NCBI GenBank assembly: GCA_026988125.1
Contig: JALSLU010000151.1
Coordinates: 1 to 33,510 of the forward strand
From: Sulfurospirillum sp.
GTDB taxonomy: Bacteria; Campylobacterota; Campylobacteria; Campylobacterales; Sulfurospirillaceae
Direction: 5' to 3'
DNA length: 33,510 nt
The translations under genes were made by a program, and so were the position numbers. The notes beneath the pieces are model-generated. The model was not told the origin of the DNA and searched no databases. It worked only from the letters and a program-made list of their open reading frames with translations. Shown here one piece after another: positions 21,774 to 24,305 of the stretch; the stretch's first letter is position 1; each line of letters opens with the position of its first letter.

Positions 21774-23201
21774 TTACTTCAATGCCTCTTTAACACCGCT
21801 AGCATAGTCATTAGAGATTTGTTCAAACAAAGAGAGTTGCCTTTGAATTATCTCTTCGGGAACCCCTTGCATTGCTTCAGCAATGTTTGAAAAGAGTTGT
21901 TCTTTTTGAACTTCACTCATAAGGTTAAACAAATCTCTTGCTTGATAAAAGTGATCATTGTCTATATTTCTATCATATCTATAAGCATCTCCTTCAAGTG
22001 CTAAAGCTGGCTCCATATATCTTGGGTCCTCTTTTGGTCCCCCAAAACTATTTGGCTCATATATAAGATTTGCCATTTTGTCAATATCTTCAAAATTCAT
22101 TGCCCCATCTTTATGGTATGTATTTACCTCGACTAAAGGTCTATTGATAGGTAGAGCTTCATAATGTGTTCCTACTCTATATCTTTGAGCATCAGGGTAT
22201 GCAAAGCCTCTTGCTAAAAGCATTCTATCAGGCGATAAACCAATGCCTGGAACTAAGTTTGATGGAGAAAAAGAGGCTTGCTCTACTTCATTAAAGTAGT
22301 TGTTTGGATTTCTATTAAGCTCTAAAACGCCAACATCTATAAGAGGATAATCTTTTTGTGACCAAACTTTTGTCAAATCAAATGGATTGTCTTTATGTTT
22401 TTTAGCCTCATCTTCACTCATGACTTGAATCTTTAAATCCCACCTAGGAAAGTTTTTATTTTCAATAGCCTCAAACAGATCTTTTTGTGAACTTTCTCTA
22501 TCTTTTGCTATAACCATAGAAGCCTCTTCGTTGGTCATATTTTTAATACCTTGTTGAGTTTTAAAATGAAATTTAACCCAAGTCCTTTTATTTTCATCAT
22601 TTATAAATGAATAGGTATGAGATCCGAAACCATGCATATGCCTATAACTATAAGGCAAACCTCTATCAGAAAAAAGTATGGTTATTTGGTGTAAACTCTC
22701 AGGAGTTAGTGACCAAAAATCCCACATTGCAGTTGGATTTCTCATATTTGTTCTTGGATCTCTTTTTTGAGTATGTGCAAAATCTGGAAATTTATAAGGA
22801 TCTGCTACAAAAAAGATCGGGGTATTGTTTCCAACTAAATCCCAATTTCCCTCTTGAGTGTAAAATTTTACTGCAAAACCCCTTACATCTCTCTCTGCAT
22901 CCGCAGCTCCCCTCTCACCAGCAACTGTTGAGAATCTTAAAAATAGTGGTGTTTTTTTACCAACTTCACTAAACATTTCTGCTTTTGTATATTTGGTGAT
23001 GTCGTTAGTAATAATCAAAACCCCATGAGCTCCAGAACCTTTGGCATGCATTGTTCTCTCAGGGATTCTCTCTCTGTTTTGATGAGCTAATTTTTCCAAC
23101 AAGTAGTAATCTTGCATAAGCAATGGTCCTCTTTTTCCTGCTGTCAACGCGTCTTGGTTGTTTCCTACCGGCTCTCCAGATGTAGTAGTCAATGTTTTCA
23201 T
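21774..23201 (-). CDS. katA: Haem catalase KatA
   Basis: A 475-residue monofunctional small-subunit (clade 3) catalase that dismutates hydrogen peroxide. His52 in [12 protein letters not shown] is the distal catalytic His, the [12 protein letters not shown] stretch is conserved, and the distal Asn lies in the [11 protein letters not shown] region. [14 protein letters not shown] holds the proximal haem-ligand Tyr. No signal peptide, so probably cytoplasmic. The ribosome site AAGGAT precedes the ATG. Upstream, TTATGAT near 23222-23229 (minus strand) is only half of a PerR-like box, so PerR control is possible but weakly supported. The ankyrin gene follows by one base. Confidence 0.97.
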
Positions 23202-23388
23202 AATTTATCCTTTTAAATACTTATCATAATGGTACAAGAATATAACTTAAAAGCAAATTATTTTTAAATAGTATATTTTTGTATTTAATATATTTTAGTT
23301 TATTTATTGTTGAACTTAGGAATTTTTTATCAATTAAATTATGGCACCGCTAAAGTTGTTAAATCAGCATTACATAATAGAATTTTTT

Positions 23389-23553
23389 AACCCAAATTAT
23401 GAAATAGGATTTGCTAAAGTAGTGCTTATAGCCTAGTTTAGGGTGTTTGTAAAAAATTTGAGCTTAACAAAAGGCTAGGCGATGATTTTTTACAAATGCC
23501 ATAGGCTAGGTGATAAGTGCTAATTTAGTGAATCCTATTGCATAATTTGGGTT
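23389..23553 (+). repeat. 165-bp imperfect hairpin element, likely RNA on plus strand
   Basis: Two 69-nt arms (23389-23457 and 23485-23553) flank a 27-nt loop. The arms differ at 13 positions. Read as plus-strand RNA, nine differences are G-U wobbles, often in tandem, and four are G-A mismatches; none is an A-C or pyrimidine mismatch. On the minus strand the same sites would be A-C and U-C clashes. This strand bias suggests a transcribed RNA on the plus strand, opposite to katA and the peroxiredoxin gene. No ORF and no convincing promoter were found. A decayed miniature transposable element is the main alternative. Confidence 0.75.
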
Positions 23554-23680
23554 TAAGTGCAAACTATTGCAAAATAAAATTAAAAAGAGCAATTGTCCAA
23601 GATAATTATCTTAAAAAAAACAAGTAGTAAAAAAGTTAGACTAAATAAGGAGTATTTCTAAAATGAGGTAGAAATGAAGT
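23554..23680. other. AT-rich spacer with a 14-bp palindrome
   Basis: This is the rest of the 507-bp gap between katA and the peroxiredoxin gene. It has no ORF of note. AAGATAATTATCTT at 23599-23612 is a perfect palindrome flanked by eight A residues; its GATAATTATC core is the kind of site a Fur/PerR-type dimer could use, but it lies about 400 bp from the katA start. The part of the gap at 23202-23388 contains the katA promoter region and nothing else I can name. Confidence 0.3.
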
Positions 23681-23708: not shown

Positions 23709-24305
23709 TTAAAGCTCTTCAGCATGCTTTGCTAAGTACTCAGCAACCCCTTGTGAGTCAGCTTTCATACCTTCATCACCCTTTTGCCATCCCGCAGGGC
23801 AAACTTCTCCATGCTCATCAGTAAACTGCTGTGCATCAATCATTCTTAGCATTTCATCAACATTTCTACCAAGTGGCAAATCATTTATAACCGCATGTCT
23901 AATGATTCCTTTGTTATCAATTAAGAATGAACCTCTAAGTGCTACGGCATTATTTAAAAGAACATCGTAAGAACGAGCTATATCCTTTGTCAAATCCGCA
24001 ACTAATGGGAAATTAATTCTTCCGATTCCACCTTTTTCTACTGGGGTCTCTCTCCATGCAAAGTGAGAAAATTGTGAGTCTACCGAAACACCAATAACAT
24101 TCACCCCGCGCTTTTGAAACTCGTCATATCTGTGAGAAAAAGCTATAATCTCTGATGGACAAACAAATGTAAAATCAAGTGGATAAAAGAAAACTACTGT
24201 TCCTTTTTCTCCATAATTCTCACTTAGAGTAAAATTCTCAACAATCTGACCATCCGCTAAAACTGCAGTTGCAGTAAAATCTGGAGCTGGGTTTGTAACT
24301 AACAT
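23709..24305 (-). CDS. 2-Cys peroxiredoxin (AhpC/Prx1 type)
   Basis: A 198-residue typical 2-Cys peroxiredoxin that reduces hydrogen peroxide and organic peroxides. Peroxidatic Cys49 lies in PLDFTFVCPSE and resolving Cys169 in HGEVCPAGW. WRETP and the GGIG insert are present, and the C-terminal extension has YLAKH in place of the usual YF motif, features linked to sensitivity to over-oxidation. Ribosome site AAAGGAT. It is called AhpC or TsaA in relatives; which reductant it uses is not shown, as no ahpF is nearby. It is monocistronic, with a hairpin terminator after it. Confidence 0.95.
   Translation of the reverse strand: MLVTNPAPDFTATAVLADGQIVENFTLSENYGEKGTVVFFYPLDFTFVCPSEIIAFSHRYDEFQKRGVNVIGVSVDSQFSHFAWRETPVEKGGIGRINFPLVADLTKDIARSYDVLLNNAVALRGSFLIDNKGIIRHAVINDLPLGRNVDEMLRMIDAQQFTDEHGEVCPAGWQKGDEGMKADSQGVAEYLAKHAEEL

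Follow-up and report, generated by a model that had tools for sequence, protein, structure and literature searches.

A strand-biased palindromic MITE family of Campylobacterota and its copy between a catalase and a peroxiredoxin gene in Sulfurospirillum sp.

Known palindromic repeats and the copy in the window

MITEs, i.e., non-autonomous transposable elements, are generally seen as dead passengers with drifting interiors, the sequence between their ends usually not being conserved. Other palindromic repeats are scattered over bacterial genomes as well: ERIC and RUP are imperfect palindromes of approximately 100–130 bp in intergenic regions, the REPIN/REP palindromes are multicopy, intergenic and moved in trans by RAYT transposases, and the attC sites of integrons are imperfect hairpins with one favored folded strand. 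The REPs have a length of 20–40 bp (PMC3733652). The Correia elements (CREE/NEMIS) of Neisseria are short palindromic MITEs with a directed conserved core, a duplication of the target TA and no protein of their own, occurring in size classes of 153–157, 104–108 and 69–73 bp (PMC2649163). The CREE hairpin is present as RNA in transcripts and is bound or cut by RNase III (PMC2649163).

CREE are the nearest functional analogue of the element described here, which occurs in forms of 157–168, 74 and 64 bp and is likewise palindromic with a directed core, a target duplication and no protein. However, it carries the ends CCC...GGG and duplicates a 5-bp AT-rich target instead of showing Correia ends and TA, it belongs to another phylum with a probable IS1380 partner, and it shows an order-wide strand-biased conservation of wobbles, which the cited passages do not describe for CREE (PMC2649163). 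Its terminal inverted repeat (TIR) type and its 5-bp target-site duplication (TSD) are those of IS1380 elements of the same order, but its interior hairpin, which is conserved in hosts of different families, does not belong to the examined IS1380 elements. From the REPIN/REP palindromes it differs by the 5-bp duplications and the IS1380-like ends. One strand is favored for folding as in attC sites, but the copies are scattered and have 5-bp target duplications and CCC/GGG ends. As are ERIC and RUP, it is a scattered intergenic imperfect palindrome, but it has no Rfam match, and its ends and target duplication set it apart from these repeats as commonly described.

The window, i.e., the whole analyzed stretch of 33,510 nucleotides from Sulfurospirillum sp. 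(contig JALSLU010000151.1), contains one copy with the following features:

21774–23201, minus strand: catalase gene (katA/HPII-like), 475 aa, neighbor only (NCBIfam HPII model, below its cut-off, E 6e-132)
23386–23390, no strand: target-site duplication TTTAA, left copy, 5 bp, identical to 23552–23556
23391–23551, plus strand: MITE, full-length copy, 161 bp, CCC...GGG, homologous to the plus strand of the family model (covariance model CM R1 168 bits, E 1.2e-33, the window copy being among the sequences that build this model)
23391–23409, plus strand: left terminal inverted repeat CCCAAATTATGAAATAGGA, differing at one position from ...TGCAATAGGA of the family (TIR pattern matches; IS1380 elements with the same kind of end)
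23391–23458, plus strand: left arm of the long hairpin (MFE structure; covariation in alignment A1)
23462–23480, plus strand: apical stem-loop, conserved in the family and damaged in the window copy, TTAAC-AAAAGGCTAGG versus TTAACCAAAAGGTTAGG in the family (alignment A1)
23484–23551, plus strand: right arm of the long hairpin (MFE structure; covariation in alignment A1)
23533–23551, read on the minus strand: right terminal inverted repeat CCCAAATTATGCAATAGGA, an exact match to the TIR pattern
23552–23556, no strand: target-site duplication TTTAA, right copy
23709–24305, minus strand: peroxiredoxin gene, 198 aa, neighbor only (NCBIfam peroxiredoxin models)

The hairpin of the window is one copy of a MITE. 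An earlier note on this DNA had placed a hairpin at 23389–23553; the hairpin exists, but the element proper spans 23391–23551 and the outer AA/TT bases belong to the TTTAA direct repeat. The strand singled out by the note, the plus strand, does run opposite to both neighboring genes, catalase and peroxiredoxin both being encoded on the minus strand. Alignment of the two 68-nt arms resulted in 10 G-T and 4 G-A differences, and A-C, T-C, G-G, C-C, A-A or T-T differences were absent from this alignment of the window copy. This bears out the claim that the arm differences in 23391–23551 are solely G-U and G-A on the plus strand with zero A-C, whereas the count given with it (9 G-U and 4 G-A in 69-nt arms) is one site lower, depending on where the arms are cut.

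As RNA, the plus strand of 23380–23562 folds with an MFE of -87.4 kcal/mol compared to -37.9 kcal/mol on average for shuffled sequences (z -13; none of them was as stable), and the minus strand of the same segment with -61.2 kcal/mol (z -9.8). Scored on the minus strand, the window copy reaches 102 bits with CM R1. This copy is ageing: its left terminal repeat has a changed base and its apical stem has lost a base, a single C missing from the window row only in alignment A1. Within the central loop (window 23459–23483), the apical stem is flanked in most lineages by a purine-rich internal loop (UGA / GAU), in which tandem sheared G-A pairs may form and which may be a candidate protein-binding motif. 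A role as terminator was rejected, the T-run after the apical stem being present in some lineages only (e.g., not in G197) and not a trait of the family. Nothing convincing as a promoter of its own was found inside the element.

Copies, ends and the probable mobilizer

The own genome of the window copy (1.87 Mb, 176 contigs) contains about 40–50 copies; full or shortened ones lie in at least 41 places, the covariance model recovering 41 distinct places at E ≤ 0.001. A plain DNA search also recovers these homologues, with full-length copies being 86–97% identical next to many shortened ones. The copy count that the earlier note had proposed for the host genome thereby reveals a multicopy element and not a single-locus RNA. 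The TIR has a length of approximately 19 bp (CCCAAATTATGCAATAGGA), and its pattern has about 85 matches in this genome compared to 0 for the reversed control. Among 87 full-length copies from 30 genomes, an exact 5-bp direct repeat is present at the element boundary in 53 (8.5 expected), while a boundary shifted by 1–2 bases leaves 5-bp repeats in only 0–1 copies and the alternative lengths of 3, 4, 6 and 7 bp are at or near chance. A larger set shows the exact 5-bp TSD in 79 of 127 full-length copies. The 5-bp targets are AT-rich, mostly TTTAA, TTAAA and TTTAT. Terminal inverted repeats with a target duplication of fixed length, as well as dispersed full-length forms that are uniform (157–168 nt) and without coding capacity, are properties by which MITEs are recognized, and the element has them. 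Short derivatives of 64–76 nt carry the 5-bp TSD in 12 of 15 cases; as most of the interior is missing from them, the ends are enough for movement and the interior is not strictly required.

Nearly all copies are intergenic, with 7 of 127 full-length copies overlapping a long ORF, and the four arrangements of the neighboring genes are similarly frequent (35, 30, 24 and 24), i.e., there is no preferred orientation. At 8 of 302 loci a second short repeat, TTTAGAGGTGCCCTT, lies near or inside element copies (L018, L025 inside a copy, L029, L032, L034, L035, L061 and L136) and possibly marks the terminus of a different insertion sequence or MITE. The smallest derivative seen is a 37-bp form (L056:2492–2528), scarcely more than two terminal repeats head to head, and in L127:1505–1783 two elements of the hairpin family directly adjoin, as might follow from the insertion of one next to or within its neighbor.

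The earlier note had proposed an RNA of about 165 nt dedicated to the katA/peroxiredoxin locus and tied to oxidative stress. The very stable plus-strand fold and the strand bias would be in line with a regulatory RNA specific to this region. However, the element is present in at least 41 copies with unrelated neighbors, its resident copies are without strand-biased constraint (see below) and the apical stem of the window copy is damaged. In relatives, the orthologues identified for katA and peroxiredoxin lie apart and are not adjacent, and the katA upstream stretch read in G001, where katA is 88% identical and the upstream region different, does not contain the element. As the orthologues are unlinked and katA of G001 lacks the element upstream, the katA/peroxiredoxin site is incidental for the element. 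Many scattered copies with target-site duplications were the very finding that the note had named as speaking against its proposal; together with the unlinked orthologues and the missing preference for a neighbor orientation they contradict the dedicated RNA, which is regarded as extremely improbable.

Among 299 genomes of the same order, searches with the family model (17 sequences, 162 positions, 72 pairs) recovered relatives in 36, distributed over 16 genera and many families, the matches having nearly always the full model length. Copy numbers from this survey are lower bounds, since nine candidates were scored per genome and many of the genomes are fragmented MAGs. With 150 candidates scored, the complete genomes G074 and G226 showed 31 and 24 matches, some of which are the two strands of one copy. 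The pattern of the conserved loop matched, among named genome records, only Sulfurovum, Nitratifractor, Sulfurimonas and other Campylobacterota MAGs, and plasmid and phage records did not contain a match to the element. In G004, more than 20 contigs break inside the apical loop of an element variant (ends L047–L052, L069–L074, L077–L079, L081 and L082), which suggests that young copies are present in high number and stopped the assembler. G103, of another family, contains a copy (L161) close in sequence to the window type (23391–23551), which suggests a recent horizontal transfer or a contamination of that MAG.

Ends of the same kind are found on IS1380 elements. G226 encodes four nearly identical 1.66-kb IS1380 copies, with frames of 464 aa in three and of 399 aa plus a shifted remainder in one; they have the ends CCCAAATCCGTAAATAG on both sides and the TSDs TTAAA, ATCAT, TTTAT and ATTAT (all 5 bp), and the transposase matches the IS1380 equivalog (NF033539, 335 bits, cut-off 180). 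The IS1380-like elements of G109 and G290 end in CCCAGATTTTGCAATAG and CCTGGATTATGCAATAG, respectively. In G109, the end CCCAGATTTTGCAATAGAG, of the same kind, borders a longer element with a truncated transposase (Pfam DDE_Tnp_1_4 match); in G290, an IS1380-like gene lies near the end CCTGGATTATGCAATAGGA, two bases from CCCGAATTATGCAATAGGA, a form present among the copies of the own genome. Ends common to a MITE and an autonomous element are thus represented by the IS1380 copies of G226 and G109 and by the end of the relative in G290, and an IS1380-family transposase resides in an element with a like TIR and TSD length. These elements were reached via G109 and a search with PF13701, while the first end pattern did not reveal an autonomous element with exact MITE ends at transposon spacing in G226 and G167, as the IS1380 ends there differ from this pattern at two positions. 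A transposase-like gene of 595 codons is nested inside the IS1380 remnant of G109 (L180).

The IS1380 transposase was not found with PF13701 in 11 of 14 element-bearing genomes searched, among them the own genome and the element-rich G074, G042 and G127, loss or assembly collapse being possible reasons; across the 299 genomes the element and PF13701 are only loosely associated. As the transposase was not found in the own genome, the link to IS1380 rests on the like ends and the duplication length and not on co-occurrence. Judged by these ends and duplications, an IS1380 transposase very probably moves the element.

Strand bias and the level of selection

The homologous plus strand is the more stable one in every one of the 127 full-length copies (30 genomes), with a mean of -81.3 versus -54.4 kcal/mol. 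As the model used for the initial strand assignment includes the structure itself, the count was repeated using two short sequence tags only. Tag and model agreed for 121 of 127 copies with 5 ties, and the 122 tag-assigned copies contained 944 G-T versus 133 A-C mismatches, numbers inflated by common ancestry, with G-T enriched in 28 of 29 genomes. To account for this ancestry, 34 representatives of <85% identity were selected and changes were counted on an approximate tree. Between lineages, Watson-Crick pairs changed to G-U 117 times and to A-C 28 times (105–119 wobble-making versus 24–28 A-C changes in four tie resolutions), next to 217 double Watson-Crick changes. In the 17-sequence alignment 30 of the 72 pairs changed on both sides, and this covariation exceeds 500 of 500 shuffles and all slid structures. 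The compensatory changes are thus above the controls, as expected for a structured RNA. A search of Rfam 15 did not yield a family above the gathering cut-off and relaxed thresholds only gave weak microRNA hairpin matches, in agreement with the earlier statement that no known RNA family is recognizable; a published description of the element was not found in literature searches on MITEs in this phylum.

The 217 double changes could also arise by gene conversion between the arms in cruciform DNA, resulting in compensatory changes with folding unselected. However, such conversion treats both strands alike and cannot place G-T consistently on one homologous strand throughout 30 genomes, making this explanation improbable. 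It is with good confidence that folding of the plus strand is regarded as being under selection.

A different picture emerges for changes private to single copies within genomes, where G-U (46) and A-C (35) do not deviate from equality (p = 0.27) and which differ from the between-lineage ratio of 117:28 (p = 1.9e-4); upon exclusion of G243, whose cluster spans diverged lineages, the ratio is 37:35. As the bias is present between lineages and absent from private changes, selection for the folded plus strand acts at the level of the propagating lineage rather than of each resident copy. The strand is not what keeps resident copies in place, since the private changes are unbiased, the copies are intergenic and the neighbor arrangements are similarly frequent. 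The plus-strand element under selection proposed earlier accordingly stands in so far as the bias is family-wide and arose many times independently, but not with regard to constraint on resident copies. The same private changes speak against a mutational bias, by which one strand that is exposed (e.g., deaminated) would gather C>T changes. C>T changes on the plus strand do yield G-U pairs, but among the wobble-making changes A>G (58–65) outnumbers C>T (31–36) and private changes are unbiased, rendering this origin very improbable.

The folded strand and its meaning

The favored strand might also work as single-stranded DNA, i.e., as a folded intermediate or recognition form in replication or transposition comparable to attC sites and IS200/IS605 ends. 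Folding as single-stranded DNA favors the plus strand as well (-43 versus -31 kcal/mol), the copies show no orientation bias towards transcription, and G-T and G-A are comparatively well tolerated DNA mismatches. However, a DDE mechanism on double-stranded DNA is indicated by the 5-bp duplications of the target and by the ends resembling those of IS1380, and the hairpin has many tandem wobbles, which penalize DNA hairpins more than RNA hairpins. A function as single-stranded DNA is considered rather unlikely, and it appears reasonably probable that the folded plus strand is RNA instead.

In the explanation put forward for these data, which as a whole is held to be highly probable, a MITE is mobilized, now or once, in trans by IS1380-family transposases and needs its plus-strand fold for long mobility. 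The insertion took place at TTTAA, in the stretch separating the peroxiredoxin and catalase genes, and duplicated these 5 bp. IS1380-family transposases would mobilize the element in trans, or would have done so formerly, and long-lasting mobility would require the plus strand to fold, more likely as RNA than as single-stranded DNA. Wobble and G-A sites would allow the arms to diverge as DNA, avoiding an unstable perfect palindrome, while the hairpin of the plus strand survives; within the arms and beyond position 22, the longest Watson-Crick run without interruption has a median of 7 bp. Where the element sits in a transcript, RNase III could bind or cleave its RNA hairpin in analogy to the Correia elements, any such specific role being at best a doubtful suggestion. 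After insertion at a site, the copy would decay without selection on its strand. More tentatively, the element may represent an order-wide MITE family whose survival depends on one folded strand, RNA or single-stranded DNA, in its own propagation or control, i.e., a DNA transposon and, no less, a mobile structured RNA.

In contrast to usual MITEs, the interior, the apical loop and the strand-specific wobbles are kept across families of one order, while the resident copies drift. With this pattern, selection on the mobile lineage can be told apart from selection for a function in the host, and the role of palindromic MITE interiors becomes directly testable. The pattern also suggests a way in which a palindrome of 160 bp survives: the wobbles interrupt it as DNA, and the fold of one strand is retained. 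As the lineage, though not the window copy, has kept one strand foldable, the data suggest that the folded strand matters to the spread of the element.
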